Shown piece by piece: positions 1,111-55,508 of a stretch of DNA of 64,000 nucleotides (within the stretch, counting starts at the first letter, position 1; the number at the start of each line of letters is the position of its first letter). Origin of the DNA: Antedon mediterranea (taxonomy: Eukaryota > Echinodermata > Crinoidea > Comatulida > Antedonidae); NCBI RefSeq assembly GCF_964355755.1, contig NC_092679.1:17102932-17166931 (forward strand). Direction: 5' to 3'. The translations under genes and the position numbers were made by a program. The notes under the pieces are model-generated. The model did no database searches. It was not told the origin of the DNA and saw nothing but the letters and a program-made list of their open reading frames with translations.

Positions 1111-4100
1111 GTACGATCACCTTGTAACCGAGTTAGCCGGCCTCAGGCACAATTAGCCTAATTATAGTAATTCAAGGCTAAGATACAGTAAAAAGTATTC
1201 AATTAAAAGTATTCAATTAAAAGTATTCTGAATAATACTGGATTTAATCATGTATTTTCAAATAACATACCTATAAGATTCAGCATGGTTTAAATCTTTT
1301 AAGTGTGTTAATCGTCAAATGTATGAATTGGATTGGTTTAATAAAAGCTGTACCAAACCATCATTATCACTTTATGTTAAATTTAAAAAAATGCCTGAGT
1401 TAGAAAATTATCTTACTGTTAAAACTGATTTTCATGGTGCTCAATTGAAATTTAAGGCAAGGTCAAATACTCTTCAACTTGAAAGTAGATTAAGTAAATG
1501 GGATATGAATAATACTGGTAATTGTATGTTATGTAAGGATGAACCTGAAGATTTATATCATTTTATGTTAAATTGTAAAGTACTACAAGAAGTGCGAATT
1601 TCAGAATTTGAATGCTTGGAACAAAACCTTAATGATTCTGGTCTTTCAGATCTATGGAATTCACTCCAGTTAAATAATTCAGAGGTTATCTTAATGATTA
1701 TGTTATGCGCGATTTGCGCAATTTGAAATTGCGCAAAAAAATCCTTGCGCAATTTGAAATTGCGCAAAGAATTCTTGCGCAATTTAAAATTGCGCAAGGA
1801 TTTTTTTGCGCAATTTCAAATTGCGCAAGAAAATCTTTGCGCAATTTTAAATTGCGCAAGAATTCTTTGCGCAATTTGAAAACGAACTGTAAATTTTCAA
1901 ATTGCGCAACAAAATTCTACCAGACAATCGGTATTATAATAATTTATTGGAAACTAAATAACTCAAAATAAAACATAATAAATGCGAAGATAACATGTGT
2001 ATAATAAATACATAACATTTATTATTACAATTAAATAATACTATCACTGTATTACTTGAAATAAATCAAAATAAATGTAAAAATTAAGTTTTTAATATTA
2101 GTTTAAGCTAGGCCATGTAACCTAGTCAGTATCAGTAGTCCAGACCCTAGCTAGGCTAGAGTAGTATAGCCGGCCGCCCGCGCCGCGCCCGCCTGGTGGA
2201 ACACCACCGCTTCGTTTTCCTTCGTCGGTTCTTCGACGGTATGCTAACTTATAACAATATTTGCACTACTAAAATAAGGAAATGCGATATTTATCTTTAA
2301 TTTTGAATCATTAGAAATTACTATAAAAATATGGGTGTGCATGATTTCACAATCTGTCGAAAAACCTTGCGCAATTTGCAGATTACTTGCGCAATTTAAT
2401 ACGTTGCTTGCGCAATTTGAAACACATGTTTCAATTCAAATTGCGCAAGGATTTTTTTTGCGCAATTTCAAATTGCGCAAATCGTTCAAATCGCGCATAA
2501 CAATTATACTTGGTGGTGATTGTTCTGTTCTCATTCCAACAATGTCGATTAATATGGTAAAAAGCCCATGACATTCTTGATAAATTCTGCAAATCATATC
2601 TTAAGAAAGCATGGGCCTTTAGACAACGTATAAAGTCTAACATTATCGAATGATTTTTTATTTTATGTAATTTGGTTTAGTTATCTTACTTTGTTCTTTT
2701 TCTTTTTTTTTTATATCAATTCTGTTTACAGTCATCAAATAATTCACCACAGCTGAAATAATTTAATCTATGCTTTCCTGTTTATTGATGTCCCTAATTT
2801 GGGTTCCTATTGTTCCTTATCATTTTTGCTGGTAGACACTGTGTTTCAAGAGTGTGTATATCTTAACATAGATTCTAAGTACTGTATATTCCTTTGTTCA
2901 TATACGGTACTAATTATTATGCTAATTTAGTGTCCAAGCTTATGTATGTGGGTTGCATTTAATTGGTATAGTATTACAGTTTATTTTTAATTTGGTTTTA
3001 TCGAACTTCCGTTTTATCTGAGCATTATCTGTTTTAATCTAGTCTATCTTTATTTTTATACTCTTATATTTTTATATTGTATGTTTAATTGTTTTAAGGA
3101 TGCACCATTATTATGTGTGCCGCTGTTCAAAAAGCGTTTTCCAAATAAATTATTATTATTATTATTATTAGTAGAAATAATAATGGTCAGTTTTAAGTGT
3201 GAATTAACGTGACCATGCTTTGTGGTGGAACAATTCAGGGAAAAATTTCATTTGAAAATTTTGTTTAGCAAAATTGCTAATCAAACTGATTTTTTAGGGT
3301 ATTGCTAAACTGCGCAAACACTGCGCAAACAACAACAAAAGCTGCGCAAACCTCCTTCAAACCAATTAATATTTATTAGAACACAACTAGAACTATATAG
3401 GGAGACAATTTATGAGAAAAAAAATTTGAAATTCCTTTAAGTTTGCCTTTTTTTGGGTTAAAAACTTCCATTTTTGGGAAAATTACTGATTTCACAGCGC
3501 AAACAACAACAAAAAGCTGCGCAAACCTCCTTTAAATCAATTAATATTGATTAAAACACAACTAGACCTATATAGGGAGACAATTTATGGGGAAACACAT
3601 TTGAAATTCCTTTAAGTTTGCCTTTTTTTTGGGTGAAAAACTTCAATTTTGGGAAAATTACTGATTTCACAGCTCAAAAAAAAAAAAAAAGCTGCGCAAA
3701 CCTCCTTTAAATCAATTAATATTGATTAAAACACAACTAGACCTATATAGGGAGACAATTTATGGGAAAACAAATTTGAAATTCCTTTAAGTTTGCCTTT
3801 TTTTTAGTGAAAAACTTCAAAACTGTAATACTAATACTGTACCAATTAAATGCAACCCACATACATAAGCTTGGACACTAAATTAGCATAACAATTAGTA
3901 TATGAACAAAGGAATATACAGTACTTAATCTATGTTAATATATACACACTCTTGATACACAGTGTCTACCAGCAAAAATAATAAGGAACAATAGGAACCC
4001 AAATTAGGGACATCAATAAACAGGAAAGCATAGATTAAATTATTTCAGCTGTGGTGTTACATTAAAATGGAATATTCAACAAAAAATTGTTTCCCCTTCC

Positions 4101-7100
4101 CTGCAATTTTGGACGTTTTTTGGAAAATAATACATATATATCACTTTAAAAACATTAAACCATGTCATTCCTTGTCTTAAATGTACGTTTTATGGTAAAT
4201 TATGATAAAAAGTGAGAAACAATGCACTACCTAAGTAGCTCGCGGCGATCGACCTCTCGTGGACGGTCTTAGGCCTAGCCTGGCTAGGCTTAGTTTTGTA
4301 GGCCTAGCTGGTAAACATCGGTAACGTGCGAACATCGTACGCTAGCTATATACCTAGCCTGACGTTGTATAGTTGCTGCATTAATTGTCTTTCTATTTTT
4401 GCCAGACTCCGTTGATACAAATTGGGGAAAACCCGGTATTTTCGCTGAAAAGTTAGGAGTCTTCCATTTGTTTTGGCCTCACGATCGATCGAAAAGTGGG
4501 CGAATTACAGGTGAAAAACAAAAATATCAATCCGCGCGCAATGCATTTTGGAATTTATAGCGGGCCACTATAATTATTAAAATCGACTTATTTTTCACAT
4601 TTTTAACCGTTTAAAGACGAAAAAAGTTATCGCAATAGGACCATATAGTATTATTTTTACATTAAATATAGTTTGTGATCTTAAATTAGATCTAAAAAAC
4701 GTAGGGAATGGGGCTTTAAGAATTATTTTTTCAGGGGGACAATACATATACGTATAAGCTCCATGGTTTTAAAATCATCAATTTTGCTCAGTCATCAACA
4801 TGTGACTCTGTATCTGACACTTTTAGATTAGTATCCTATTATATCTTGTGTAAATATATCGAAGCATTATAAAACCATAAAGTAGTTACATAAGGTAACA
4901 TAAGATAACCGAATGCATTTTTTATCAGTTTATTAACTATACTAACTGGCATTTTATAGTATCAGGAATGAGTAATAGTGTACTTCCTTTGTTATTATGA
5001 AATGAATCGCTACATTTGTTCAGTTCAAGCAGCAAATATGTTTGCTTATTTCTGACCTTATACTCATGACTTTGGTACTGTATACAAAGACAGGCTCAAA
5101 CAATAAGTATACCACATGACATAATAATGGTATCCACATTTCACCATTTTGTTTATTTTGGTGCTTTTCTGACTTTTTAAGTTTTCTGACTTTGAATTTT
5201 GTGTACAGTTGAGTCCGGGATTACCTTAAGTAAAGCACAAGACATACATCTGATTTCCACATACTTATTATTTAAAACCATGTGACATTCAGTTAGTTTT
5301 ATGATGCAATTAAGACCTATGATGACTCATACATTTATCTTTTCAGTAGTTATTCTTAGTTTTGGATAAATTTTGCAGACAAATTTAGGTTTAGTACGGC
5401 CTTGTTTCCTGGTATTTTTATTTTAAGTCTGGCATTTTTTATTTCAGGTGTACGTTTTGGCAACCTAAATTATAACTGTATTATTATGATTAAATATTCA
5501 ATAAAAAGTCTGTCACTATCCACAATAATCAATGAATGAATTATAAGTTTTATTTTTATTTATTAAATCATGTTTTTATTTTCTAAATAGGCTGACGTTT
5601 GCCATGCCTACCAGATACTGCATCGTAATGGCATTCCTGATAAACAAATTGTTGTGATGATGTATGATGATATAGCAAATAATGAAGAGTAGGTTTACAG
5701 TCTTTTGTTCAGCCACGCTAAAGCAGATTATTATAAGTTATTCATTTACGTTAATTTTAAATTTTATTACCATTTTAAAATATTGTAATGTATAATCGTG
5801 TATTGTTTTTTTTTTTAAAGAAATAAAAGGCCGGGCGTGATCATCAATCATCCAGCTGGTGATGACGTTTACCATGGTGTTCCTAAAGATTACAATGGAG
5901 AGGTATAATAATAATTTCCATAATTGACTGAAGCTCTGTCTACACTACCAAATATAATACTTAATAGGGATATGCCCACATATGGTAGTGATATGACATC
6001 ACCGTGTCCATATATGGGCACATAACATTTTTTGGTCACATAAAGTTTGATTTAATCAGTATAGGGCTTGACGTGTCACTATAAGGTTGAGTGGTTAAGT
6101 ATGTTTTGCGATGGTTTTCTAATCGCACGATCAGGACTTTTCTTCCAATTGCTTGCGTCCTAAGGCAAGGGATTTTCCTTATGTTTGCCTCTCTACACAC
6201 CACTCAGGGGTACAAATGAGTAGGCCAACCTGGTCCATACATGTTTGAACCAAAAGGAACCGGGCAATAAAACATTCAAGCAAGAACAACATATTATTAT
6301 CATTACCATTATAATTATTACCGTATAATCTAGGAAGGTGGGATTATACCAGAGGATATACGGTAATGTAAGCACAGCTGCACCCTCTATATTTATTATA
6401 TATTTTTTCCAATTTGTTTTGGCAATAATTCATATTTATGTCATAACAAAATAAAGATAAAGTGACCAGTTTTTTATTTTATTTTTTTATATAGAAGGTT
6501 GTTTCCTTATCCTTAAAATAAAAATATTTCCTGAACCAAAAGGAAATAACTAACAGCCAGTAGAAATTGAAAGTCTCATAATATCTGAAGTTATAAGATC
6601 TATTGTGTGTTCCAACAAAGACCTATGATATAGATCAGTAAAGTTCACATGACTGAACAAACAAGTGTCTACTAAAGACAGTCCAGAAAAAAATTCTTTG
6701 ATATTGTTTGAAGATTACTGCTGGATATTGCTTTGTGTCTGAACAAGATATCTTTAAAAAAGATTACGTTTTAAACCATCCTGCATAAAAAATAAAGCCT
6801 TTCATATTCATTTGTTTTCCAGAAAACATAATTAACACAAAAATTATACATGATGGATAACAATACAAAAACCCAGGACACCATTCTGGCAGATAGTCAA
6901 AAAGCAATAAAAATATTGCTATAAACAGACTCTCTTATAGTGCTGGTTGACGAAAAAATAATTATAAGCTTTCGATTTGAAAGAAAATGTGTGAAAATCA
7001 GGGAGAGAGAAGGGGCTCAGCTTTAATCAGGTGTCACCTTCCACCACCTAAATTTGCTTTACCACAGGTCCCACCATGGGGGTCTGTGGCTCAATTAGTT

Positions 7101-10100
7101 AGTGTCTCTCTCCCCCCACCCACCTCCAATTTCAAAATTCTGGATCCACGCTAGCCCTGTACCAAATTTTTCATACATGCCCCTGTTATGCGCGATTTGC
7201 GCAATTTAAAATTGCGCAAAGAATTCTTGCGCAAGGATTTTCTTGCGCAATATTAAATTGCGCAAGACTTGCGCAATTTCAAATTGCGCAAGAAAATCCG
7301 TGCGCAATTTTAAATTGCGCTGCACAATTTGTAAATTGCGCAAGATAGTTCTTGCGCAATATGACACCTTTGCGCAATTTGAAAACGAACTGTTTGTTAT
7401 TTTTATTATTGTACTCATTTGTTGTTGAGAATGGTACCGAAAGGTCAATCTTTTTTGTCATTAAATTAAATTTTTAAGTTAAATAGTAAATGTCTAATAA
7501 TTCGTAATAATTATTGTTTCTAAAAAAAAATCCAATCATTATTAGTCTTATTAATCGTCATTAGTACTGATATTTGAATTGAAATTATTATATTACTATT
7601 GGTATTTATTTATGCCTTCTCCTCATATTATGTGTGAATATGGTATTTTATAGAACCATTGGGAATTCGAGATTTTTTTTATTCGGAAAAAAAATTCGGG
7701 AGGGAGGCTCCCGGGAGGGTAAGGAAATGCGATATTTTAAATTTTGAATCATTCTTAAAAATTACTAAAAAAATATGGGTGTGCATGATTTCACAATCTG
7801 TCGAAAAACCTTGCGCAATTTGCAGATTACTTGCGCAATTTGAAACACATGTTTCAAATCAAATTGCGCAAGAAATTTTTCAAATCGCGCATAACACCTA
7901 CACTCCCATTTTGGCCGTATTTTAAACTCATCTCCACTTGTGACGTCACACACCTCTCGATAATAGATAGAGGGCGCTGTTGACTGAAAAAAGGAGCACC
8001 TCCTGTTTTGCTTCTCCTGCTTCAGATGTTGCATGTATGGTTTCTTTATAGTGTACTTTTCGTGCAATGTATACAGCTTTACATTACATCCAAAGGATGA
8101 GGCAATGAATGCATCTTGTTTTAAAGATACAAAGCAATTATATGCCAACTTATAATATCAGGTCTTAATTATTTAAAAACTTTCTGTAGTGTTTAAATAG
8201 TAATATACATTTGTGGTTTCTTTTTTTTTTGTTTAGGACGTGACTCCAAAAAATTTTCTGAATATTCTTCAAGGGAAAAAATCAGCAATGGCTGGTATAG
8301 GGAGTGGCAAAGTTATAGAAAGGTAAACCATGGAGTAAAGACAATTTTTAAATTGAGATTGTTGTGAAGAACAAAGGGAATTAAAACAATTTAGGAAGCA
8401 TTTGATTTTTCACAATAAAGCAGGAAACATAAACTCCTCAGGCATTAATCTCTCTCTACACTATCAAAATGTATGGGACAAAAACATATGATGTGCCCAA
8501 ATATGGAAGTGATATGCACAAATATGGTAGTGATGACATCATGTCCATATATGGGCACATCACATGTTTTAGTATCCTCTAAAAATTACATCAGTAAAAG
8601 GTAGCAAATGCAAAAAGTTAGTAATTATGATTGTTGCAGAATAATTGTGCTACTGTATTAATATTTTAAAATGGTTTTGAAAAAAAATTATAAAAGCATA
8701 CCGTACATAAGAATATTATATTAGTCAAAAGAAATTAATTATGATGATATAGAATTAATTGAAATATATACTTTTTGTGTTTTTCAATTCAAAACATTTA
8801 TTCAATAATAATAATAATAATAATAGTAAGACAAATAATACAAGAATAATAAACAATAAGAAATAGTAATACAATACAAAAACAAGAAAAGGTAAACAAT
8901 AGAAAGGAATGCCATCATTGGGGTCATGATTCAGAAGTAACAAACTTGTCTCACCATGACATTATATAATTGAAATGAATGTTGGATAAATAACCTTTGG
9001 TCAACGCACAAAAAAATTAACATTTTGGTCTATTGGTTGGGCTCAATGCGGACATGCATAATAATTGAGGAATTATACATTACAATAATTTAATAACAAG
9101 TGCATTTTCTTTTTGTGGGTTTTTTTGTAATCACATTACCATTCCTAAACTTCAGTTTATGCAAAAAACTATTAAAATGAATGTTGGATAAATGACCTTT
9201 GGCCAACGCACAAGAAAATTAACATTTTGGTCTATTGGTTGGGCTCAATGCGGACATGCATAATAATTGAGGAATTAAATATTACAATAATTTAATAACA
9301 AGTGCATTTTCTTTTTGTGGGTTTTTTTGTAATCACATTACCATTCCTAAACTTCAGTTTATGCGAAAAACTATTAAAATGAATAAAATCAAGATCAAAT
9401 AAGTTAAAACTGCCTCAATATAGATTTATTTTAACGACATGTTTCGGGCATAGCCCATCATCAGGTGAAAAGAATTGTAACAAAGGATAACATATATAAG
9501 TCACAAAATTACATAATAAAACAAATCAACCAATCAAAGATGTTAACAAACAAAAGGCATAGTTATAAAGGCACGCCTCCAAAAGCTATGGGGTACAAAG
9601 CAGGAATGGTTGCTTATAAAGCAGGAAATTTAAAACAAAGACAAAAGCTTCTATGCCTTTTGTTTGTTAACATCTTTGATTGGCTGATTTGTTTTATTAT
9701 GTAATTTTGTGACTTATATATGTTATCCTTTGTTACAATTCTTTTCACCTGATGATGGGCTATGCCCGAAACATGTCGTTAAAATAAATCTATATTGAGG
9801 CAGTTTTAACTTGTTTGATCTTGATTTTTTTCTATATCCTGCCTATGCAGCTCTTTGATTTATATTAAAATGAATGTTGGATAAATGACCTTTGGCCAAC
9901 GCACAAGAAAATTAACATTTTGGTCTATTGGTTGGGCTCAATGCGGACATGCATAATAATTGAGGAATTAAATATTACAATAATTTAATAACAAGTGCAT
10001 TTTCTTTTTGTGGTTTTTTTTGTAATCACATTACCATTCCTAAACTTCAATTTATGTGAAAAACTACTTGAATATTGTGCAAGATTTTCCACATTAAACA

Positions 10101-13100
10101 TTAAACATGCACGTTTCAGTTTCAAATTAATTTAAATTAATGTTTTTATTTATGTGAGTTTTTATTATTCTGTTTAGTGGACCCAATGATAATGTGTTTG
10201 TGTATTTTACGGACCATGGTGCACCTGGCCTCATTGCCTTTCCATCTGAAGAGGTGAGTCTTGACAAGTAAAATAAATTATACGTTATATAAATAGTTTA
10301 TGTATAAAAGTAGACACTATTTTTCTGGGGGAGGAGAGGAGGGTGGTGTAATACAGTAGAGCCCATTCTTTGTTGAGACACCCCTATTAAAGGGACACCA
10401 TGGTACCCAACAAAGTATACCCTTAATAGGGGTTCATACAATAATAAAATCAGATTTGATGGTAAAATCAAAAGTCACATTTATAGAAGGGCATGCAGGG
10501 TATCCGTATATGTCTGTATAGAAAATGTTTTTTAAGCTTTGTCCACACTATCAAACCAGTGTGATGTGCCCAAATATGGTAGTGATATTTCCAAATATGG
10601 TAGTGATATCATCATGTCCATATATGGGTACATCACATTTTTTTGTCACATAAAGTTTGATAGTGTAGACAAGGCTTTAGATATACTGCAATTGCAACTG
10701 CAAGGACAGTTAATATTGTTTTTTGTGTTTTTCTTTTTAGCTACATGCAAAAGACCTAATCACAGCATTGAATTCTATGTACAATGCGAAGCAGTATGCA
10801 AAGGTACAACAACTTTACATTATTTTCAGTAACACAGAAGCTACCATTCAAAGACCCTCAGTACAACAAAACTTTGGCAAAAAATTATTCAAATGGAAAA
10901 TTATATATTATTATAATTCTAAAAATGTTAAAAAGAAAAGAGTACATAACTTGTTGGTATGAAGAATAAAAAGGATTAACAAAACAACATTTTTTCCTTG
11001 ACGATATTACAATAATTACAATTTGTTGTTTCTTCAGCTGGTATTTTATCTGGAAGCGTGCGAATCTGGTTCAATGTTTAAAGACCTTTCATCCACAATC
11101 AACATCTATGCCACTTCTGCTGCCAACGGCAAGGAGTCTTCATATGCCTGCTACTTTGACAAAACCCTGGAAGTGTACTTGGGTGATCTGTACAGCGTCA
11201 AGTGGATGGAAGACTCTGATACGGTTAGCAAATGAATGAATAATAGCCTTTTCACATTAAACACTGGGAATAAAATTTGAAGGTACACTCATGTACCCAG
11301 AGTCCTAGTAGTACCATTCACATTGCCTAGTATTGAAGGTACACTCATGTACCCAGAGTCCTAGTAGTACCATTCACATTGCCTAGTATTGAAGGTACAC
11401 TCATGTACCCAGAGTCCTAGTAGTACCATTCACATTGCCTAGTATTGAAGGTACACTCATGTACCCAGATTCCTAGTAGTACCATTCACATTGCCTAGTA
11501 TTGAAGGTACACTCATGTACCCAGAGTCCTAGTAGTACCATTCACATTGCCTAGTATTGAAGGTACACTCATGTACCCAGAGTCCTAGTAGTACCATTCA
11601 CATTGCCTAGTATTGAAGGTACACTCATGTACCCAGAGTCCTAGTAGTACCATTCACATTGCCTAGTATTGAAGGTACACTCATGTACCCAGAGTCCTAG
11701 TAGTACCATTCACATTGCCTAGTATTGAAGGTACACTCATGTACCCAGAGTCCTAGTAGTACCATTCACATTGCCTAGTTAGTATTGAAGGTACACTCAT
11801 GTACCCAGAGTCCTAGTAGTACCATTCACATTGCCTAGTATTGAAGGTACACTCATGTACCCAGAGTCCTAGTAGTACCATTCACATTGCCTAGTATTGG
11901 AGGTACACTCATGTACCCAGAGTCCTAGTAGTACCATTCACATTGCCTAGTATTGAAGGTACACTCATGTACCCAGAGTCCTAGTAGTACCATTCACATT
12001 GCCTAGTATTGGAGGTACACTCATGTACCCAGAGTCCTAGTAGTACCATTCACATTGCCTAGTATTGAAGGTACACTCATGTACCCAGAGTCCTAGTAGT
12101 ACCATTCACATTGCCTAGTATTGGAGGTACACTCATGTACCCAGAGTCCTAGTAGTACCATTCACATTGCCTAGTATTGAAGGTACACTCATGTACCCAG
12201 AGTCCTAGTAGTACCATTCACATTGCCTAGTATTGAAGGTACACTCATGTACCCAGAGTCCTAGTAGTACCATTCACATTGCCTAGTATTGGAGGTACAC
12301 TCATGTACCCAGAGTCCTAGTAGTACCATTCACATTGCCTAGTAGAAACTCCAGAAAGACCTCATTCAAATCAATCATGAAATACCAGAATTGTATTTAT
12401 TATTTAATAAATGTTCGGCTGAGGGTGAACATCTGACCATGTATAACAACACCAGCGTTTAGTCAGTCAGTTTAGTCAGTACCTTTCACATTGAATCCCT
12501 AATATGTTCTTGGTGCATTTGTAGAGTTTGAAGAGTTGTTGTATTGTACTGTTTAGTTGGTTTCTTAATTTACACCAAACAAAACGCCAGTATTGGCTCC
12601 AGAGTCTTAAGATAAGATAAGATAACTTTTATTGATCCTCAAAAAGGAAATTCATTGCTCATCATAATAACAAAGAAAACACAATAAAAACAAATATAGC
12701 ATAAAACCATTCATATAAAAACATCTAAAAAATTACAAGATAAAATAATATTCTTGACTTCCTGTTGTACTGGATGATACCGGAGGGAATAAAGGATTTA
12801 CCAAATCGATTTGTTTTCACACTGAGGAGCCTCAATCTACCACTTGGATTAAGTTGGTCTATGATCACTTTGTGGAGAGGATGAGAGGCATCCGACTCAA
12901 TGCGTTCAAAATCTTTCTGGAGGTGTTCTAGGTGCACATCGGTAAAGGAAGGCAGTTCCAGACCAATCATTTTACCAGCCCGACGGATGAAAGTTTCAAA
13001 GCGTCCTTTATTCCCTCCGGTAACATTACCAGACCAACAGGAGAGGCAGTACGTCCAAACACTACATATAACGGATCTATAGAACGAAAGTAACATCAAA

Positions 13101-14670: not shown

Positions 14671-14701
<31 letters not shown>

Positions 14702-17277: not shown

Positions 17278-19775
17278 AGTGAAGCTGTAGCTTGGTGGTT
17301 AATGTGCTTGCTGTAGTGAAGCTGTAGCTTGGTGGTTAATGTGCTTGCTGTAGTGAAGCTGTAGCTTGGTGGTTAACATGCTTGCTGTAGTGAAGCTGTA
17401 GCTTGGTGGTTAATGTGCTTGCTGTAGTGAAGCTGTAGCTTGGTGGTTAACATGCTTGCTGTAGTGAAGCTGTAGCATGGTGGTTAACATGCTTTAGTGA
17501 GTGAGTGGCCGAGCGGTTAAGACAGTGGAACCGTAATCACGTAGCCATAACATCGGCAGGGGTTCGAGGCTCACTCACTCTATGGTTCTGGTGGTAGAAC
17601 GAGTCTTCTCGGATAAGGACTATAAACCGTAGGTCCAGTGTACACAACTTGCTCGTGTGCACTTTAAAGAACCTAGTACATCTTTCGAGACGAGTAGGGG
17701 GTTACCCCGGTGTATTAGTACATCACAGCCACTGATCACCAACTGGGCCCTCTGGGAGATCAGTCTTTGACTGAAGAGGTCACCCAGTATAAAGATAAAG
17801 ATAAAACAAACTGTAGTGAAGCTGTAGCTTGGTGGTTAATGTGCTTGCTGTAGTGAAGCTGTAGCTTGGTGGTTAACATGCTTGCTGTAGTGAAGCTGTA
17901 GCTTGGTGGTTAACATGCTTGCTGTAGTGAAGCTGTAGCTTGGTGGTTAATGTGCTTGCTGTAGTGAAGCTGTAGCTTGGTGGTTAACATGCTTGCTGTA
18001 GTGAAGCTGTAGCTTGGTGGTTAATGTGCTTGCTGTAGTGAAGCTGTAGCATGGTGGTTAACATGCTTGCTGTAGTGAAGCTGTAGCTTGGTGGTTAATG
18101 TGCTTGCTGTAGTGAAGCTGTAGCTTGGTGGTTAATGTGCTTGCTGTAGTGAAGCTGTAGCTTGGTGGTTAACATGCTTGCTGTAGTGAAGCTGTAGCTT
18201 GGTGGTTAATGTGCTTGCTGTAGTGAAGCTGTAGCTTGGAGGTTAACATGCTTGCTGTAGTGAAGCTGTAGCTTGGTGGTTAACATGCTTGCTGTAGTGA
18301 AGCTGTAGCTTGGTGGTTAACATGCTTGCTGTAGTGAAGCTGTAGCTTGGTGGTTAACATGCTTGCTGTAGTGAAGCTGTAGCTTGGTGGTTAATGTGCT
18401 TGCTGTAGTGAAGCTGTAGCTTGGTGGTTAACATGCTTGCTGTAGTGAAGCTGTAGCTTGGTGGTTAACATGCTTGCTGTAGTGAAGCTGTAGCTTGGTG
18501 GTTAACATGCTTGCTGTAGTGAAGCTGTAGCTTGGTGGTTAACATGCTTGCTGTAGTGAAGCTGTAGCTTGGTGGTTAACATGCTTGCTGTAGTGAAGCT
18601 GTAGCTTGGTGGTTAACATGCTTGCTGTAGTGAAGCTGTAGCTTGGTGGTTAATGTGCTTGCTGTAGTGAAGCTGTAGCTTGGTGGTTAACATGCTTGCT
18701 GTAGTGAAGCTGTAGCTTGGTGGTTAATGTGCTTGCTGTAGTGAAGCTGTAGCTTGGTGGTTAACGTGCTTGCTGTAGTGAAGCTGTAGCTTGGTGGTTA
18801 ACATGCTTGCTGTAGTGAAGCTGTAGCTTGGTGGTTAACATGCTTGCTGTAGTGAAGCTGTAGCTTGGTGGTTAATGTGCTTGCTGTAGTGAAGCTGTAG
18901 CTTGGTGGTTAACATGCTTGCTGTAGTGAAGCTGTAGCTTGGTGGTTAATGTGCTTGCTGTAGTGAAGCTGTAGCTTGGTGGTTAACATGCTTGCTGTAG
19001 TGAAGCTGTAGCTTGGTGGTTAATGTGCTTGCTGTAGTGAAGCTGTAGCTTGGTGGTTAATGTGCTTGCTGTAGTGAAGCTGTAGCTTGGTGGTTAACAT
19101 GCTTGCTGTAGTGAAGCTGTAGCTTGGTGGTTAATGTGCTTGCTGTAGTGAAGCTGTAGCTTGGTGGTTAATGTGCTTGCTGTAGTGAAGCTGTAGCTTG
19201 GTGGTTAATGTGCTTGCTGTAGTGAAGCTGTAGCTTGGTGGTTAACATGCTTGCTGTAGTGAAGCTGTAGCTTGGTGGTTAATGTGCTTGCTGTAGTGAA
19301 GCTGTAGCTTGGTGGTTTACGTGCTTGCTGTAGTGAAGCTGTAGCTTGGTGGTTAATGTGCTTGCTGTAGTGAAGCTGTAGCTTGGTGGTTAACATGCTT
19401 GCTGTAGTGAAGCTGTAGCTTGGTGGTTAATGTGCTTGCTGTAGTGAAGCTGTAGCTTGGTGGTTAACATGCTTGCTGTAGTGAAGCTGTAGCTTGGTGG
19501 TTAATGTGCTTGCTGTAGTGAAGCTGTAGCTTGGTGGTTAACATGCTTGCTGTAGTGAAGCTGTAGCTTGGTGGTTAATGTGCTTGCTGTAGTGAAGCTG
19601 TAGCATGGTGGTTAATGTGCTTGCTGTAGTGAAGCTGTAGCTTGGTGGTTAATGTGCTTGCTGTAGTGAAGCTGTAGCTTGGTGGTTAATGTGCTTGCTG
19701 TAGTGAAGCTGTAGCTTGGTGGTTAATGTGCTTGCTGTAGTGAAGCTGTAGCTTGGTGGTTAACATGCTTGCCTT
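17278..19775 (+). repeat. 37-bp minisatellite, about 58 copies
   Basis: The unit is GAAGCTGTAGCTTGGTGG followed by TTAATGTGCTTGCTGTAGT or its TTAACATGC variant; the two variants alternate irregularly. The array is interrupted once by a SINE at about 17495-17812. The last unit runs into a tRNA-like sequence with a box B. Confidence 0.95.
17495..17812 (+). mobile_element. tRNA-headed SINE inside the 37-bp array
   Basis: The head GTGGCCGAGCGGTTAAGA is a box A of tRNA-Ser/Leu type, and GGGTTCGAGGCT is box B. The body contains CGGATAAGGACTATAAACC, GGTCCAGTGTACA and TTTAAAGAACC. It ends in AAAGATAAAGATAAAAC. The body shares a central segment with the 5S-headed SINE at 32325-32540. Confidence 0.8.
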
Positions 19776-19910
19776 CCAATCCCAAGGTCCAGGGTTCAAT
19801 TCTGACCTAGTCCCAGGGTTGTAACTTACGACTCTTTCAACTCCACTCCTTAAGCCTCAAATGATGATAATGAAATGACGATAAATTAAAATTATAAAAT
19901 AGTTTATACA
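19739..19910 (+). mobile_element. tRNA-derived SINE that founded the 37-bp array
   Basis: TAGCTTGGTGGTTAACATG fits box A; after the usual spacing, GGTTCAATTCT fits box B. The 5' part equals the 37-bp minisatellite unit. The 3' part ends in GATGATAATGAAATGACGATAAA. Degenerate copies with the same head may be at 24125-24180 and 34290-34345. Confidence 0.65.
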
Positions 19911-20292
19911 TCCTGTAATTGGCGAGTTTGTGCTCTTTCAATGCGTATGAAATTAAAAAAAAAAAATATTTCCTACAGTATTTTAACTGGACTCATTACC
20001 TAAAACCTATTTAAACAAGCTTCATCGTTGGCTATTTTTAAGATGAAATATAAACTTTCTTTTATTAATTTATACTAAGCTAATGTCTATATATATTATG
20101 GCATGATTACATGCATGCATGTGTATGTATAATGTAATGTTTCGAACCTCATCTGGTATTTGGTTGTCCTGGCAATGGTATTCCCTAACATTCCCTATAA
20201 TTAATGGTCTATTCGTCTATTTATTTATTTGTTTATATATATACAGTATATTCTTTTTACGGTATCTTAATTAATGTAACTAGTTTTTAGTG

Positions 20293-21356
20293 GGCCTTGT
20301 GGAGCCGTGAAATGTGCAAAAAGTCACATTTGTGCAAACAACCACATTTGTGCAAACATTTTACCTTCAAATGTGCAAACAACCACATTTGTGCAGACAT
20401 TTTACCTTTAAATGTGCAAATTTGTTAAAATCCATTACCCACAAATGTGCAAACATCTTGCCGTTAAATGTAAAAACGGTCAGTTTTGACGTTAAATGTG
20501 CAAAAGGTATTCTACAAATGTGCAAATCATTTATTCAGTCAAATTCCTATTACATTTGATATTTTTGGTTCGTAGGTCTTTCAGAGTATAAATAACAATA
20601 GAGTATAATAAATTTAAAATGCTCAATATCATAATAACTAATTATACTGTTGTATTTTATTATGATCAAAGGCTTTAACCCGTCTCAGTCAAATTCAAGT
20701 CGACCCCAAGTCAACTCGCCCACAAGTCAACTCGCCCTGAAGTCAACTCGGCCTCACGTCAACTAGGCCACCTTAAAGTATGAAACGCAAAAAGTGCAAA
20801 TGAATGGGACAAAATAAAATGAACAGAAGAAAATAATAAAAACGAAGTACGCATGTTATAGGGATGAATATTAGAATGAATGTGAATGTTAGTTGACCGA
20901 TTAGTTTTTGGCCGAGTTGACGTGAGGCCGAGTTGACTTGAGGCCGAATTGAATTTAGCCGAGGCGATTTAGAGCCTTTGATTATAGTAAAATACAACAG
21001 TATAATTAGTTATGATATTGAACATTTTAAATTTATTATACTCTTTTTCCTATTGTTATTTCTACTCTGAAAGACCTACGAACCAAAAATATAAAATGGA
21101 ATAGGAGTTTGGTTGAAGAAATGCTTTGCACATTTGTAGAATCCTTTTGCACATTTAACGTCAAAACTGATCGTTTTTACATTTAATGGCGTGATGTTTG
21201 CACATTTGCAGGTTATGAATTTTAACAGATTTGCACATTTAAAGGTAAAATGTTTGCACAAATGTGGTTGTTTGCACATTTGAAGGTAAAATGTTTACAC
21301 AAATGTGGTTGTTTGCACAAATGTGACTCTTTGCACATTTCACAGCTCCACAGGCC
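20293..21356. mobile_element. concentric foldback element, families C and G
   Basis: Ends GGCCTTGTGGAGCCGTGAAA / inverted copy at 21356. Outer arms (20293-20668 and 20985-21356) are inverted copies packed with TGTGCAAA/CACATTTGTGCAAAC words. The inner part (20668-20984) is itself inverted and carries a different iterated word, AGTCAACTCGGCC (20700-20768 and 20894-20960). ORFs in it are artefacts of these words. Confidence 0.85.
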
Positions 21357-21844
21357 TCCTATCACAAGCCCCTTTGGGGTTTCTTGGAGGTCCCTTTCAT
21401 CGTATAAAATATGTTTTACTCTACCTTGCTTGTTTTTGTTTGTTTATGAGATGAATAAAGAGATTTATGTTATGTTATTTTAAGGTTTTTTCATTTTTTA
21501 GTTCCATTTTCATCAGTGTCAGTGAAATGAATTAAATACTGTAAGTGTATACGAGGGATTTAGACATAGAATAGAACTAGAGGAATAATATACTGTATAC
21601 TGTATATACATATTCAAAATAAACACTCAATCGACATGAAAAACTACAACATTAATATCAAGAAGTTAAAAATACAGTAGACCCTATAAATTGTATCAAA
21701 ACTCTTTGTAAATTGTCTTCAGTCAAAAAAAAATCTGTGTGTTTAGTATTGTGTGTGTTTGTATATGATGTGGCTGCATTTATTCAAAGTGAGGCGTTTA
21801 TTAAAATAAATATGGTTTTTTTATGTATTATTGTAAACCAATAG

Positions 21845-21947: not shown

Positions 21948-22019
21948 GTAAGTTTTGCAAATCACAGGTACTGTAGTTCTCAATTTTGTTAGGGAACATG
22001 TGTCAAAATTAGTTCAGGA

Positions 22020-22142
22020 CTACTGCAGTTACTGCAGTAACTACATTTTGTAATTATTTACCAAGTTTTGTGGATAATCATAAATAAATTAAAGACATGT
22101 TATTGCAGTGAAAAAATGTAGTTACTGCAGTAACTGCAGTAG
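22020..22142. repeat. small inverted repeat of ACTGCAGT words
   Basis: Arms 22020-22049 and 22113-22142 are perfect 30-bp reverse complements, each with two TACTGCAGT-type palindromes, around a 63-bp spacer. Confidence 0.85.
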
Positions 22143-22338
22143 AAAAATATTTGAACTCTTGAACCAGATTTTTAAAACACATCCAATGATGTCCTCTATT
22201 TATCAGATACCAAGCGATGAGCGCAGTGATGACTAGCGGTGAGGGGAATAAGCAATCAATAAATTATGACCATTGATATAAAAATTCAGAGTTATCCTTG
22301 TAAAAATGTGAAAATGTTTTTATGTTGTTTTTTTTTAG

Positions 22339-24445: not shown

Positions 24446-24671
24446 ACCAAAGCTGAATGCCTTCGCTTACCATTCACAAAGCTTTCGAATGCTACTCCTG
24501 GAATGCTATTATTGGCATTCGAAGGGCTATATCTTAGCATTCAATGACTAATTAGCATTCGAATGCTTCTTAGCATTCGCTAAGGCTTCGCTAAGGCTTC
24601 GCTAAGCCTTCCAGATTTAGCATTCGCTAAGGCTTCGCTAAGCCTTCACTAAGCCTTCCAGGGAGCCGAAT

Positions 24672-24931
24672 TATTCGAATGCTAGTGGATGAATGCTATA
24701 CCAGCATTCGAATGCTAGTGGGTGAATGCTACACTAGCATTCGAATGCTAGTGGGTGAATGCTACACTAGCATTCGAATGCTAGCGGGTGAATGCTACAC
24801 TAGCATTGGAATGCTAGCGGGTGAATGCTACACTAGCATTCGAATGCTAGTGGGTGAATGCTACACTATCATTCGAATGCTAGTGGGTGAATGCTACACT
24901 AGCATTCGAATGTTAGTGGGTGAATGCTACA
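24672..24931 (+). repeat. 33-bp array of AGCATTCGAATGCT palindromes
   Basis: About eight units, each with a perfect 14-bp palindrome AGCATTCGAATGCT followed by AGTGGGTGAATGCTACACT. The 91-codon ORF here only reflects a unit length divisible by three. Confidence 0.9.
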
Positions 24932-25857
24932 CTAGTGAGCAAATTACATGTTAGCAGGGAAATGCTACATAGCATTAAATACACTACAGTATTGTAATAG
25001 GAATTCAGGGTTGCAACAAAACAAGTTAAAACTCTCATCAGACTACAGTATGTTATGATGTTAAACTAGGACCTAAAATAAAAGGCAATTCAACACAATA
25101 TTCGGACATGAATAGTACAAGGCCTTAATTTTTACTTTTATTGTTTTGATATACTGTATAAATAAGATGCTTCATTTATCAGTCTAATGGGTTAAGGATG
25201 TTAACCTGCTAAGGTCTTATGTCCCACATATAGTACCGTGTTTAATTAATTGTTTAGAAGTACATCTATTCAAACTTTTATTTATTTTTTTTGTGTTGTT
25301 CAAGCAACTCGCTTCTACTTTAGCATTCTTCTCCGACAATCATTCTGAAAGATAAAAATCAATTATTTGCAAAGGAGACCTGTTCCTTTATGTACAGTCA
25401 CTATTAGCAGATAAAACTGAATTATGCACTACATTCTCTAGTCTGTAGAAGGACTATTATATTAGTATCATTCAGGTTTAATAAAAAGGATTTTATTTAA
25501 TATTTACCCTTTTTAAAATAAATACTTGTTGTGTTACTGTTTTTATTCATTTCAAATGTTGGAATTAAGGAAATATTCTGCCATGGCATAAAAATGCCTC
25601 CACCATCCCATTGTCTTATAATAAAATAAACGATAGAGTGAAAACTGCTTTAATTTATAGTTTAGTTAGCCCTTCTTTTTGATCAGTGATACAATGTGGT
25701 TAGCTAGGCCCAGAGTATACTATAACTAGCCTAGGCCAGCTACACAATATAACCAGGGAGTGACTTAGGGGATTCGACTTTTGATAGGACTTTTTGATAG
25801 TACCACCACAACTGAATCCCAAACCACTCACTATCTACTGCAGCCTAGCCGGTAGCC

Positions 25858-26970: not shown

Positions 26971-27245
26971 TGTATTCGCCTAGCCCTGGTCCCTCTCTGC
27001 TGAACTCAACTTAGTAGGCTGTGTGTGGCTATAATACTCCTCCTATTATTATTAGGCCTAGCTAGTTAGTAGCCAAATACAGAATGATAAAAGAACAAGT
27101 ATAGCTACTAGCTACAATACCTTTTATATCAGCAAAATCTGTGTCACGGTTGCCAGCAGGTAAGCTGTAAAAAAAAGGAAGGCTGCAGTCTATTGTAGGC
27201 ATCCTCACTCTCACTCAACTCAGCCTTTCTCTAGCCATTGGTCCT

Positions 27246-27656: not shown

Positions 27657-27724
27657 ATAATCAGTATATATAACCCAGTACAGCTATGCGTTTTTTTTGT
27701 TGTTTTTTTTTCTATTTTAATATT

Positions 27725-29182: not shown

Positions 29183-29331
29183 TATTGAGAAAATGTAAAT
29201 ATCTTTGTATTTCAGCTAAGGCTGCGATGATGATATTGAAATAAATGAAATGAAATGAAAAAAAAAAAAAAATTAGCATTCGAATGCCTAGCGAATGGTT
29301 AGCGAAGGCTATTTAAGCATTCTCCTTTGGT

Positions 29332-38055: not shown

Positions 38056-38060
38056 ACTAA

Positions 38061-39676: not shown

Positions 39677-42600
39677 ATGAAGAATTGGGCTCTTCTTGTA
39701 GCAGGGACAAGAGAATGGCATAACTATCGGCATCAGGTATTCAATCTTATAATTTTATATTTTCTTAAATGTTTAAATTTTTTATTAGGTGATCATTTAG
39801 AATAAAATGATCACCTATTGTTATTTTACAAAATCTTTATTGTTGTTTTTTAGTTATCCGCATTCAGCGGATAACTCCTTGTAACTGTCCTGTTTCATCA
39901 TCTTTTTTTTTCTTTTCTGTATTATTAGTTATCCGCATTCACGGATAACTCCTTGTAACTGTCCTGTTTCATCATCTTTTTAGTTATCCGCTTAGTAGCG
40001 GATAACTCCTTGTGATTGTAGTGGATCAATATTTTTTTTTTTCTGTATTATTCTTCTTTCTTTCCCGTTTTTTTGTGGCTCACGTATCTCTAAAATGTGT
40101 AAACATAATATTTCATAACTTTGACAACATGTGGGCATTTACGTAAAGTTGTGCACCTGCATTTTGTACAAGTGCTAAAAATGGTAAAAAATAAGGCCTT
40201 TTTAAAATGAATATAACTCTTCAGAATGGCAGGTGACCCCCGATTTTTTTAACATATTATGGAAGCCAATAAGTTGTAGATACAAATGTATATACACATT
40301 AGACGTACAAAATGGTATGATGTCATCAAATGGCCACTTGAATTAAAAAATTAGTAATTTTTATCTTTTTGTGTGGGTTATCACATTCAATAGAGCGCAT
40401 CTCCGTTATTTAAGCCCGATTTTTGCACAAATTTTAGTATGTGCTTGCTCAATTAATTATCTTTCTCATGAGTTGTCAACATTTTTATTTTGATGACGTC
40501 ATCATGCGTAAAAACTTGAATAACCTAGGTCGTGTAATTTCAGCTACACCATACATTTGAATATCTTATAGCTCTTCAGAATTAAAGGTGACCTTGAAGA
40601 TTATAACTTATTATGAAAGCTGATGAAATGTAGATATGAATTCATATCAAAATTAAGCCTATCGGATGTTGTGATGTTATCATATGGCCAGTTGAAGTTA
40701 AAAAGTAGTTTTTTAATTTCTTTAGTCGAAGTTATACAAATTTCAAAGAGCGCGCATTGCGCTTCTACGTGTCAAATTCTCTTCCAATCCTTATATTTAT
40801 CTGCTCAAAATTCATTATCTTTCGAAATTGTCATCTTCGAGTTTATTTTGATAATTTCATCATACCAAAAATTTAGAACACGATGTGGGTCCCGTAATTT
40901 CACCTATGCTACACTGTATATAGATATACAGTATACTGTACATTATTGTATATGTCACATAATAGGTACAACTCAGCGCTATAAGCGTATATGCATCATG
41001 TCATAGGATGGCGTACATCAACTTTTTACGATGGTGTGTTAACGTACGTGCATGTTTAAAAAATGTTAATTTCATTAAAATGATAAAAATGATCACCTAT
41101 AATTCGTCAAAGTGACGAATTAAATTCTAGTTTATGTATAATATTGCACAAGACCAAAATTACAGCTTACAATACTTTGGCAGCATATAGGCCTGATCAT
41201 TTTTGTTGATCAAACAAAGTTATTTGATCAGTCTCCACGATTTTATTAATTTTATATTATTAAACAAGGTATGTCTTTTAAAAAACAAGCAATACGTGAA
41301 CCACAGGTATGTGTTACTTTCAGTGCTAAAGGCACAATCAGTAACTATTAACATCTAGGAGTACCTAGTCTAGGTATTCCAGATGGAGTTTTGGCTTAAA
41401 TATTAGTAAAAAGAAAAACATTTTGGCACATATTTTTATACATACTACTTGAGCTTGTAAACTCTGTTTGGTGAAACACATACAAGTCGCATGGTTTGAG
41501 ACCAAGAATTCTTGGTGCATATAATTATCCGGTTGACTAGTTTCAGCTGCATGCCATTGGCTACTCACTCATATTTTAATATGCATTTTTGGAAATTTCG
41601 AAGATTCAACAACTAAGATGATGTGCATCATGGATTAAAGAATAGAAGGATATGCATCGACGTGAGATCAATGGTTCCTTGACTCTCGCCGACAGACCGC
41701 GGACCGCCCACAATGTTACAGTTTAATTAACCGCATGGTAACAACGAAACGGTCGCGTGCCCAATATATTGTTTACTGCACATGTGCAACGACATTTAAC
41801 CTTGTTGGCTACGCTTCTTTCGCGCGTTCTTTGGTGGCATGATGTTTGTAGATGGTCTGTCACGCCAAAATCAGTCCGGGCCAAAATCGGTCCGGCGGAC
41901 CAGTTTTGGCTGCCAAAATCAATCCGGGGGACCATTTATGGCTGCCAAAACCTGTCCGGCCGGACCAATTTTGGCCGCCAAAACTGGTCCGGCCTGGATA
42001 AAATCGGTCCGGGCAGTAGGACTGTTTTTGGCCGCCAAATATGGTCCGGTCTTACAAATATATGGTGCGCAATATGAGTCATAATGTATATATCATTAAA
42101 AAAAAAAGGCCATGATTAGTCATTATATTGAAAACTATGGGGTTTTATTTGTTATTTTAATATTATAAATTAAGCCTGTTTTTTTTATTATCATTATTAG
42201 TAGTAACTCATCAATAATAAGTACTAATTGTTAGGCTTTTTGTATACAATATGTATCTCTGCCTGTTTTTAATCCATTTTGTTCTTTTTTAACATCTTCG
42301 TTTCCCCATGATGTTAAAAACAATTTAATTTATTAATTATTTATGGTTAATCAATCAATATATCAATTCAATACAATTATTAGAAAAAAATTATCCAATA
42401 TTGATTAGGCTGAGGAAGGAAAAAGGCCTCAATCATAAATCAAATCTAGCTGGCAATATCAGCGTCTCATACCCGTTCATGTGAGTGTGTGGCAGGCCGT
42501 AATATGAGTGAACACCTAAGTCATGTTTTTAGATAAAATACATTTATTTATAGTATTTATCCGACAAGATAACTTACTAATATATATCATGGGATATTTT

Positions 42601-45600
42601 TATAGCCATAAACAATTTAAAACAGCATCATAGGCCTAGTAATTCAATTAAAATCGACAGAAGAAAAGCCCGGACCGATTTTGGCAGTGGCGGACTGCTT
42701 TTGGCCACAATTTTAGAGCCAAAACTGGTCCGGCCGGACCGATTTTGGCCCCGGACCATATTTATCGTGACAGGTCAACTATTGACTATGTTGTAGGCCT
42801 AATTTAGTAATTAGTATAGGTTTCTGCCGCGATTGATCTACGCTAATGATTTTTTATGATTAAAGTAGCATTTTATGACCGTAAATATATCAGTCATATA
42901 TTCGGGAGTCATTTTATAGTATGCATTTTAAAATAAGCCTTGCAGCTCGTTTTAGACACTTATTAAGTGTTTTATTATGAGAAGCATACCTGCCACCCCA
43001 TACTGTACAACAATAGTCTAATGACGGCCTTACTAGACTAGTGAATAGTTTGTTCATGCAGCCTTGTGGGATACAGTCGCGAATCCGATTTAGCATGCCT
43101 AGTTTAGAAGAAACTGTTTTGTTCACGTACTCGACATGCGGTGACCAACTTAACGTTTCGTCAATTATGACACCTAAGCATTTAAAGGATTTTACCCTTT
43201 CAACTGAATTGTTTGCAATTTTTAGATTAAGGTTGTTAGTAGATGTTTTCTTTTTCGATCCAATGATTTGATTTAGTTTTGTTTGCATTTATGGTGAGTT
43301 TGTTTCTGTTTGCCCAATTGTGTACTATATCTAATACTATATTTAAATTTGTTTCAATTTCGTCTATGGTTGGTAAACTACATGTCAAGGTTGAATCGTC
43401 AGCGTACATGAACAACTTACAGTTTTTAAGAATACAATTTTGTAAATCACTTGTGTAAATGATAAAAAGCAGTGGCCCCAAAATCGAACCCTGTGGCACA
43501 CCAATGTCGTCGCGACTTCGATTTTGTGCCACCAATGTTTACATATTGACTGCGATCACTTAAATATGATTTAAACCACTCCATTACGGATGGTGACATG
43601 CACATACATTTGAGTTTTTTCATTAACTGAGTCAAATGCCTTGCTCAGGTCTATGAAAACAGTACCAGTCATTTTACCCTGTTCCATGGCATGTAAACAC
43701 TCGTTGGTTAAGTCATGTAGTGTTGTTTCAGTTGAATGAAACGGTCTAAACCCTGATTGACAAGATGGGATCAGCTTGTTCACATCAAGGTACGAGTAGA
43801 CGGCCGAATGTACCCACCTTTCAAAAATTTTTGAAACAATTGGTAGAATGGAAATTGGCCTATAATTATTAGTGTTACTTTTGTCTCCTCCTTTGTGAAT
43901 AGGTGTAACAGAAGCCTTTTTCCACTCTGTAGTGTAATGTCCGCATCGTATTGATAGGTTTAGGACATGGGTTAATGACTTTGTCACGTGTGGGTAAGCT
44001 AGTTTTAGCATTTTTACACTGACGTCGTCAGGACCTGTTGCTACCAGCAGACATTACTAATATTTGACTTTGAACAAATTCTTCTGTGATGTCTGGCAAT
44101 GTACATTGTTCGAGTGAATTTGACTCAGACGTTTTGGTTTGATTCAAATGTACTACTGGCTGTAGCATTCGCCATACGTTCACCGATTGTGGAGAAATGT
44201 TCATTCAATATATCAGCAATGTCGTCAGGATTGTTGATAGTAATTCCAGTATTGGAAATAATACAATTTGGGGCTGATTTTGTATTGCTTGGAAGGACCT
44301 CTTTAAGTTTCTTCCATAGCATTGACGAATCACCTTTGTTCTTTTCGATGGTTGTTTTAAAATATTCACTTTTTTTGGTCCGGATTTTATCAGTAACGTT
44401 ATTCCGTAGCGTTTTGTAGGTGTTCCAATCTATTTCTAAACCAGATTGTTTAGCCTTTTTATGCGTGCAATCACGTTGTCGCATAAGTTGCATTATTTCA
44501 CCATCAAGCCATGGCAGCGATGCGTTTCGGACGCGTTTACATTTGGTTGGTGCGTGATAGTTAAAAATACCCATAAACAACGAGGACCACACTTTCTTAA
44601 CGCAAATACAGTTAAGTACATTATTCCATGGTGCACACATTAGGTCGTATTGGAGGGCATCATGGTTTATATCTTTGAAACGTCTAAAGTGTAATGAACG
44701 AACGTTTCCGTTTTTAGGAGTTTTCCAATTTTGGATACCGTACACAACATAATGGTCACTAATTAGAGCAGGCAATACACCACTTTCGCTAACAAGTTCA
44801 GGATTTGAGCTAAATATTAGATCGATTGTGGTGTGTGTTGATTTAGTGACTCGAGTTGGCTCATTAATTAATTGGGTCATTTGGAATTGGTCAAAACATG
44901 AGGTTAAAGGATTGGTACTGTTTTTTTCATTAGACATGTCAATTTGAGGCACTGAGTTTTAGTCCCCTATTATCGTTTCTCTTTTTGGCGCTCCATAGAA
45001 ACAAAAATATTGAACATTGAATAAGTGAAATTTGCAAAAAACACACATGTAAAACATTAATTTAAGGATTTATTTGTTACTTTTTTATGTGATTCTTTCA
45101 TTGAAGTACTCATGAGGTATACTTCTAAGGTGTGGTATTCACACGATAAAGTTAGTTATCAAATTTGGAGTCATGTTTAATTAAAACATTCTTTTAAAGT
45201 AATTAGAAAGTAAAAGAAATTATTTGTCTTTCTGTACTTTACATGCACAAAACTGCCCTCAATTTCCAATACCTGGCACAAAGAGCTGTAGTAGAGATAC
45301 AGTTCTACACTGCAGGGCAAGGAACAACAACTAGAAGAAGAAAAATAATGTAATTTTTTATTTATGTAAGTTTTATTTGTAATTTAATAGGCCAATGTTT
45401 GCCACGCCTACCAGATACTGCATCGTAATTGCATCCCTGATGAACAAATTGTTGTGATGATGTTTGATGATATAGCAGATAATGTAGAGTAAGTTCACTG
45501 TCTTTGTTTATGACTTACCTACACTGCTTACAATGAGTTGAGTCTCACCATTTTCCTAGAGGGGCGTCGGCCTGATCTTGTAATAGGGAAGATCGTCATA

Positions 45601-54665: not shown

Positions 54666-54859
54666 AATCCAACATTTTGTTTTAAAATCCTTCATGATAT
54701 CTACCTATTAAAGAGAGAAGAATGGAACAACATCTGCTAAACTGTTGTAGAATACCTATCACGGTACACACAGAACAGCTTGGGTAAGTAACCGACAAGA
54801 GTTGGTGACAAGCGTTTTACATTGTGTCTACCTATTCCAGAAATAAGCACAATTTAGAG

Positions 54860-55508
54860 TGTTGACAAAGTGCGAGGCAGCGAGGCATGCCAAATATTTG
54901 TGCGAGGCATCATTTTATCATTTCCAAAAGTGCAAGGCATGCGAGGCATATAGTTTACAATTTCAAAAAGGTGCAAGGCATATCTTAACGTGCTATTATG
55001 CTATATTATAGGCATAATAATCAATTATTTATATTTGTATAATAATAGGCCTAGCGTATCTAAATAAATTTGTGTATACACTCCACCAAATAATACGTTA
55101 AATACATATAGATTCCACAGAGTTTTTAGCCCTCTAATTAATTTTTCTCTTTTGGCGTTCCATAAACCAAAATATTGAACATTGAGTGTACAGTATGCGA
55201 GAAAAACGTCTGTAAAATCACCAATTTAACGGATTTATTCTTCAATAAAGTAGGCCTACTAATTCTAAGGTGTGGTATTCAGGATAAAGCATGGTTAACA
55301 AATTTTGAAATAAAATACAATGCAGGTGCAAAAGGGAACTAGCCTAATAGCGGGCCTAGGCCTAAGCTACTTCAATTTCGGTGATTTCCTGCCTCGCAAT
55401 TTTGAGAAATGATAAAATGATGCCTTGCATTTTTTGATGATGGTAAAACGATGCCTCGCATAAATGTGTGACTTGCCACGCATGTCTCGCCGACTCGCAC
55501 TTTGTTAC
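54860..55508. mobile_element. foldback element, family I (GCGAGGCAT words)
   Basis: Ends TTGACAAAGTGCGAGGCAG and inverted CGACTCGCACTTTGTTA. GCGAGGCAT/GCAAGGCAT words occur at 54870-54975 and inverted at 55390-55500. The interior includes the dispersed repeat shared with 44965-45190. Confidence 0.8.

Follow-up and report, generated by a model that had tools for sequence, protein, structure and literature searches.

Foldback elements with arrays of iterated short words in the genome of the crinoid Antedon mediterranea: a shared architecture that most likely reflects convergence

A window of 64,000 nucleotides from the genome of the crinoid Antedon mediterranea (NC_092679.1, positions 17,102,932 to 17,166,931, forward strand) contains a series of transposon-like foldback elements that share one plan, with inverted ends and arrays of an iterated short word. 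The elements with their word arrays are genuine, and the architecture is real. With considerable confidence, we interpret them as non-autonomous DNA transposons, either foldback elements or miniature inverted-repeat transposable elements (MITEs), that derive from at least three, and probably five, unrelated cut-and-paste lineages, the words being putative transposase sites and the likeness between families being convergent. The searched genome comprises 354 Mb in 18 contigs, and the window lies on contig C10. Families are numbered by their words, namely 1 (TTGCGCAA), 2 (TGTGCAAA), 3 (ACTGCAGT), 4 (GCATTCGAATGC), 5 (GCGGCCGG), 6 (GGTCCGG) and 7 (GCGAGGCA), and element ends were defined from genomic copies. 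The elements in the window, none of which is assigned a strand, are the following.

1701-2502: family 1 copy with the word TTGCGCAA / GCGCAATTT, ends TGTTATGCGCGATTTG..CAAATCGCGCATAACA, 4-bp duplication ATTA
7184-7896: second family 1 copy, differing from the first in its centre, flanked by CCCC/CCTA without a perfect 4-bp duplication
20298-21352: family 2, bounded by TGTGGAGC..GCTCCACA, with the word TGTGCAAA and more internal AGTCAACTCGGCC-like repeats, 5-bp duplication GGCCT at 20293-20297 and 21353-21357
21992-22160: family 3 MITE, word ACTGCAGT, core at 22020-22142, left end placed by eye, right end degenerate and placed only approximately
24446-29335: family 4, word GCATTCGAATGC, ends ACCAAAG..CTTTGGT(AAGG), 33-bp array at 24673-24911
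25851-26977: family 5, word GCGGCCGG repeated at intervals of 16/19 bp, 8-bp duplication GCCTAGCC
41858-42772: family 6, word GGTCCGG, ends TGTCACG..CGTGACA, 4-bp duplication GGTC
54857-55513 (657 bp): family 7, word GCGAGGCA, 9-bp duplication CACAATTTA
62522-62682: MITE with the word CCAAATATGG, ends AAGCTCTGTC.., TA on both sides, read by eye

The inverted ends and iterated words that a sequence-only reading had reported at these positions are present, and the words are far more numerous than in shuffled sequence. Counts on both strands were compared with those in 300 dinucleotide shuffles of each stretch; the word CCAAATATGG was left out, and three of the tested words are shortened versions of those in that reading. 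Every word reaches at least 76-fold its shuffle mean: GCGCAATTT occurs 18 times at 1701-2502 (shuffle mean 0.20, maximum 2) and 12 times at 7184-7896 (0.11, 2), TGTGCAAA 16 times (0.21, 2), GTCAACTC 5 times (0.01, 1), ACTGCAGT 4 times (0.00, 1), CATTCGAATG 7 times in 24446-25000 (0.00, 0), GCGGCCGG 10 times (0.02, 1), GGTCCGG 9 times (0.07, 1), and GCGAGGCAT 4 times exactly (0.01, 1) or 10 times with one mismatch allowed (0.12, 2). Seven of the seven word families searched are multicopy in the genome, with copy numbers that are lower bounds (40 candidates scored per DNA search). Searched genome-wide, the end pattern of family 1 matches at 347+336 places, the degenerate family 6 pattern at 87+70, and the family 5 pattern, with one mismatch permitted, at 64+56; reversed-pattern controls gave 0 matches for each of the three. 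The description of the words as usually self-complementary fits TTGCGCAA, ACTGCAGT and GCATTCGAATGC, but not TGTGCAAA, GCGAGGCAT or CCAAATATGG; GCGGCCGG has a palindrome within it, and GGTCCGGCC extends to a palindrome. The word cluster at 22020-22142, originally taken for an element, is there but is only the core of a larger MITE.

Separate origins are indicated by the target duplications. Both ends were located by fixed terminal motifs and identical flanks of 2-10 bp were counted, the identity between flanks belonging to different copies serving as the control. Of the 31 family 1 copies, 24 have a 4-bp duplication (control 0.031) and a further 3 have one of 5 bp; family 2 has 5 bp in 8 of 9 copies (control 0.028; 12 copies were given, three of them without a recognised end), family 5 has 8 bp in 13 of 18 (0.000), and family 6 has 4 bp in 7 of 12 (0.045). 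The duplication of family 7 is 9 bp in three of six copies and 8 bp in one, with none in the other two. By eye, family 3 shows TTA in L069 and TAA in L064, the sole two readable at both ends among ten copies and that of the window, and family 4 shows one possible case of 7 bp (L054) among five end pairs, the right end of a sixth pair lying outside the sequence retrieved. Duplication lengths that are peaked within families and differ between them are expected for different transposases, so that the seven kinds of elements most likely come from several transposon lineages without common origin, and convergence most likely accounts for their likeness.

A single lineage that repeatedly reinvents its word, as the sequence-only reading proposed, is highly improbable. 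All families follow the common plan, and TGT..ACA ends with 4-5-bp duplications are common to families 1, 2 and 6, but the duplication lengths, which are probably 3 (TWA), and 4, 5, 8 and 8-9 bp, do not support one lineage, even if families 1 and 6 both have 4 bp. BLASTN among nine window stretches (the CCAAATATGG MITEs left out) gives a single cross-family match, which links families 1 and 4 over 28 bp (E 5e-4), and the exact word CCAAATATGG is found once inside family 6, at 42035; with these two exceptions, the claim that no word is shared between families holds. Furthermore, the loci L125-L128, which contain the DUF6729 domain discussed below and extend over 9.3-9.5 kb, are without the word clusters of the other families, their ends not being located.

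A different grouping, in which families 1, 2 and 6 form one superfamily and families 5 and 7 another, with the word changing several times within each, appears unlikely. It is consistent with the TGTNR starts and short duplications of families 1, 2 and 6, with the possibility that families 5 and 7 belong together, and with the precedent of repeat change within a superfamily in Mutator-like element (MULE) families of Aedes (PMC5225508). It is less easily reconciled with the preference of family 1 for R-TATA-Y-like sites as opposed to the mostly G+C-rich duplications of families 2 and 6, and families 1 and 2 are without a known transposase. In a weaker form of relatedness, some of families 1, 2 and 6 may be related to one another, and family 5 may be Mutator-like together with family 7, with words differing by family within such a superfamily.

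Family 1 appears to be a good fit to the end and target signature of Ginger2, which has TGTNR ends, a 4-bp duplication and the target RTATAY (PMC2836005). The 31 copies of this family (19 picked by the end motif itself, 10 by overall similarity and 2 from the window) all have TGTTA at the left end (31/31), and the context of the perfect duplications is R-NNNN-Y, with R before in 24/24, Y after in 23/24, and T, A, T, A as the commonest inner letters. Thus, family 1 resembles Ginger2/TDD in the TGTNR ends, the 4-bp duplication and a target close to RTATAY (PMC2836005); it differs in the palindrome arrays at its ends and in that no gene for the integrase-like transposase with an H2C2 zinc finger that characterises Ginger2 turned up, none having been sought by profile. 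This signature is not unique because the duplications of IS481EU and Banshee are also near 4 bp and Banshee starts with 5'-TGT (PMC10045372), and family 6, which combines TGTNR and 4 bp with another gene, shows that ends alone do not decide the assignment of family 1. With regard to an autonomous family 1 element, the end pairs among 100 listed of the 683 end matches are only 0.39-1.1 kb apart, and no integrase search was made. In 29 genomic copies, 534 of the 540 TTGCGCAA words lie within 250 bp of an end; the words, present at both ends, number 11-21 per copy (median 19) and follow one another in steps of 15-16 bp, or 30-31 bp per pair. An open reading frame (ORF) at 1277-1723 of the window with a zf-RVT match (E 1.1e-7) reaches the left end of the family 1 element at 1701 and represents retrotransposon remains adjoining the insertion.

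In the genomic copies of family 3, the inverted repeat runs outward to GGGACC..., and in its GGG start and probable TTA/TAA duplication (two readable copies) the family resembles Tourist-like PIF/Harbinger MITEs. Copies of family 4 span ~2.9 kb (L053, L054) or 2.1 kb (L055), and no ORF longer than 79 amino acids (aa) is found in L053, the sole copy scanned. The stretch 24446-29331, originally described as a single element, is a family 4 copy interrupted by a nested element and other DNA: it holds the whole family 5 element (25851-26977) with that element's own 8-bp duplication, and ~2 kb (~27256-29269) are foreign to the element body of other copies. An ORF at 27171-27656 had been read by eye as a long interspersed nuclear element inside family 4; Pfam does not support this reading and gives just ALKBH8_N (E 0.0017, below cut-off). 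Family 2 resembles hAT5 in its 5-bp duplication length alone (PMC12730594) and is placed with no superfamily because this length is shared by TDD-4/5 of Ginger2 (PMC2836005).

The duplications of families 5 (8 bp) and 7 (8-9 bp) both lie within 8-10 bp, which suggests that these families are Mutator-like; 8 bp, as in family 5, fits MULEs but is also usual for hAT and others. In Aedes aegypti, 14 of 14 MULE families have 8-9-bp duplications, 10 of 12 long-end MULE families carry subterminal tandem repeats of 9-15 bp, and Muta1 is termed a type 2 foldback element (PMC5225508). Families 5 and 7 are similar to the foldback MULEs Muta1 and Muta5 in the 8-9-bp duplications, inverted ends, subterminal repeats and many non-autonomous derivatives (PMC5225508). 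Unlike these, family 5 does not end in the same outer 7 bp at both sides: all 18 of the 18 copies carry GGTAGCC (or GGTAGCT) at one end and GAATACA at the opposite one. The family 7 element of the window has the same ends as copies of 1.94-2.07 kb and is a shortened version, with an internal deletion, of an element of ~2.05 kb.

Seven long copies of family 5 (1.7-3.9 kb, from 100 listed of the 120 end matches) were considered as autonomous candidates and rejected as family 5 elements with inserts. No transposase was seen in them by eye, a Pfam scan not being part of this reading; a reverse transcriptase-like ORF in L071 and a GIY-YIG-like ORF in L072 were noted by eye only. Two elements that do encode MULE proteins, L096 and L097, have 9-bp duplications (GGCCGGCTA and ACCCCGGCC, by eye) and inverted ends of 81-89 bp without a word array. 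L094 and L095, with a 651-aa ORF (MULE, E 5e-6, 27.3 bits against a whole-protein cut-off of 27.6), end in 8 and 6 copies of TTTTCGGTT, mostly every 10 bp, and L098, with a 706-aa MULE-like ORF (25.9 bits), ends in 5 copies of TTTTCCGG; the opposite ends of these three were not found. L083 contains, at 0-900, a MULE-like gene (352-aa frame), perhaps a host gene, whose coding parts are adjoined or separated by CCAAATATGG MITE sequence. Nesting is also seen among the family 5 copies: by eye, a further foldback element with inverted ends of ~90 bp (GTGGCTAAAGATACGGTACCGTATTC...) lies at ~502-2113 of L074, and L076 seemingly holds a family 1 element (from the ORF letters), that is, one word family nested in another.

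For family 6, an autonomous candidate of the kind that the sequence-only reading had proposed to look for, with the same word at its ends, was identified. Among 100 listed of the 157 end matches, one facing pair, 9,242 bp apart on contig C3, delimits L105 (9.24 kb), which has family 6 ends, words near both ends and a perfect 4-bp duplication, GCCC. Over 689 bp, the window element and the left end of L105 agree at 98.7%, with the last 40 bp at 100%; the identity to the right end is 80.6% over 160 bp, and between the ends the two share only short inverted-array matches and one 21-bp match. Because the ends match and there is little between them, the window copy looks like an internal deletion of an L105-like element and is probably a deletion derivative. 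A 280-aa ORF of L105 matches DUF6729 (PF20499, E 6.9e-81), and its 491-aa ORF has no match in Pfam, NCBIfam or PDB sequences. In L129 (C5), which is 99.1% identical to L105 over 4,003 bp, DUF6729 and the putative catalytic part, a region with conserved D, D, DxxH and E motifs that L105 also carries, are in one 782-aa frame.

There are 28 matches to DUF6729 genome-wide, some loci being counted twice. TBLASTN of the L129 frame indicates that L125, L127 and L128 keep the D / D / DxxH / E motifs, with variants of the first Asp (KIDSTK / KFDSTK / CIDGTK), the second Asp (LYVDRDCC / MYIDRGCC / IYADNNCC), the DxxH (RLDIWHF / RLDAWHW / RLDIRHW) and the Glu (SLESFH / SLEGFH / SLEGLH); segment identities to that frame are 61-80% for L125, 28-40% for L127, and 27-29% plus a 45-residue piece at 56% for L128. 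We infer that this region is an RNase H-like transposase. Ginger1 and Ginger2, suggested for family 6 by the TGT ends and the duplication, were rejected given the DUF6729 domain, the DxxH-type motifs and the absence of rve in L105 and L129; in six of the larger ORFs of these two copies no integrase-type (rve) domain is found, and DUF6729 is the only match. Several DUF6729 matches form tandems, four 7,556 bp apart at C8:7783957-7807326 and two 7,544 bp apart at C4:28592395-28600640, where the transposon body seems to have turned into a tandem array. At L134 (C10:15422230-15422880; match at C10:15422479), the L105-like sequence belonging to a DUF6729 locus gives way to a family 1 element, which is probably a nested insertion.

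The literature search found no paper containing 'DUF6729', with a Repbase name for the same lineage being possible, and no paper on a new superfamily with a 4-bp duplication; AcademX, with 3-4 bp, is similar to family 6 in duplication length alone (PMC10045372). It is a tentative possibility, which we regard as doubtful, that DUF6729 marks an undescribed eukaryotic DDE superfamily with a 4-bp duplication, TGT..ACA ends, DxxH and its own word arrays, and that one host drove several unrelated superfamilies to the design with an array at both ends. If so, the common design would suggest a shared pressure exerted by the host and not a feature peculiar to a single enzyme. A Pfam domain of unknown function is linked here to a transposase-like gene that lies within a cleanly bounded element.

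The words themselves most likely represent arrays of putative transposase-binding sites. Under this scenario, each lineage would be moved in trans by its own transposase, and the iterated word would be a candidate site of its DNA-binding domain, with words proposed to differ between families because the domains differ. Repetition at both ends would give a short site specificity and, once the ends pair, avidity, and the arrays may grow or shrink through slippage or unequal exchange. The regular word steps in families 1, 4 (33 bp) and 7, part of which has steps of 31 bp, could place the words on one face of the helix. In contrast to Galileo, which has a 7-bp duplication, no family here has a well-supported duplication of this length. 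As in the plan described here, Galileo, of the P superfamily, has long inverted ends with tandem repeats that hold transposase-binding sites, one of which was footprinted and others identified, and its authors suggested that many sites lend specificity to a short recognition sequence (PMC3688188). Additional sites can be inhibitory as well, as in piggyBat, whose activity is reduced by an internal site (PMC11707139).

Alternatively, the words might not be transposase sites at all and might instead have arisen incidentally, through satellite-like expansion of palindromic arrays by replication slippage. This is quite unlikely. The variable number of words in one orientation in family 5, from 2 to 19 across 10 copies, and the regular steps in families 5 (16/19 bp) and 4 (33 bp) are compatible with such expansion, whereas the steady word number in family 1 and in family 6 (8-9 in 10 copies), the presence of family 1 words at both ends, and the exact duplications, which imply insertion by a transposase, argue against it.

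Several observations weigh against the preferred interpretation, that is, convergent site arrays in unrelated lineages. A different known transposase is fully established for no family, family 6 alone has an autonomous candidate, and a single copy (L105) joins the DUF6729 gene to family 6 ends. L105 is without ~48 bp of the end array of the window copy, has 3 of its 13 GTCCGG/CCGGAC words (~1.2 expected from composition) in the middle, and carries DUF6729 and the catalytic part in different frames; the DUF6729 locus L126 is without the catalytic stretch, and the catalytic part is matched by none of the DDE models in Pfam. No family 6 ends are found in twelve 651-bp pieces at the predicted ends of six other DUF6729 loci; three of these pieces are inside the element body and nine have a match of at most 38 bp to L105, so the end positions were poorly predicted. 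Finally, there are no family 5 or family 7 word clusters at 21 of the 36 MULE-domain matches, 12 being viewed only in pieces of ~3.3 kb.

Independent evolution of the foldback structure in different lineages has already been suggested (PMC4079207, citing Marzo 2008), so that the general answer to the present finding is known; the same source notes the view that foldback elements are for the most part Mutator-like (PMC4079207). What the present elements add is a testable pattern, with candidate transposase-site arrays in several lineages of one genome and GGTCCGG as a defined word for binding tests. If the design is convergent, the question is why multi-site ends win in one host.

Besides these elements, the window contains stretches related to the CCAAATATGG MITEs near 5965-6051, 8440-8570, 10558-10685 and 61660-61880. 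On the minus strand, 43574-44958 holds the remains of a non-LTR (long terminal repeat) retrotransposon (RVT_1, E 2e-12; Exo_endo_phos_2, E 2e-5, below cut-off), and an ORF at 50901-51248 matches Peptidase_C13 (E 1.3e-9), perhaps an exon of a host gene. The region 18001-20000 (45% GC) shows a strong strand asymmetry, with a GC skew of 0.41 and an AT skew of -0.30.

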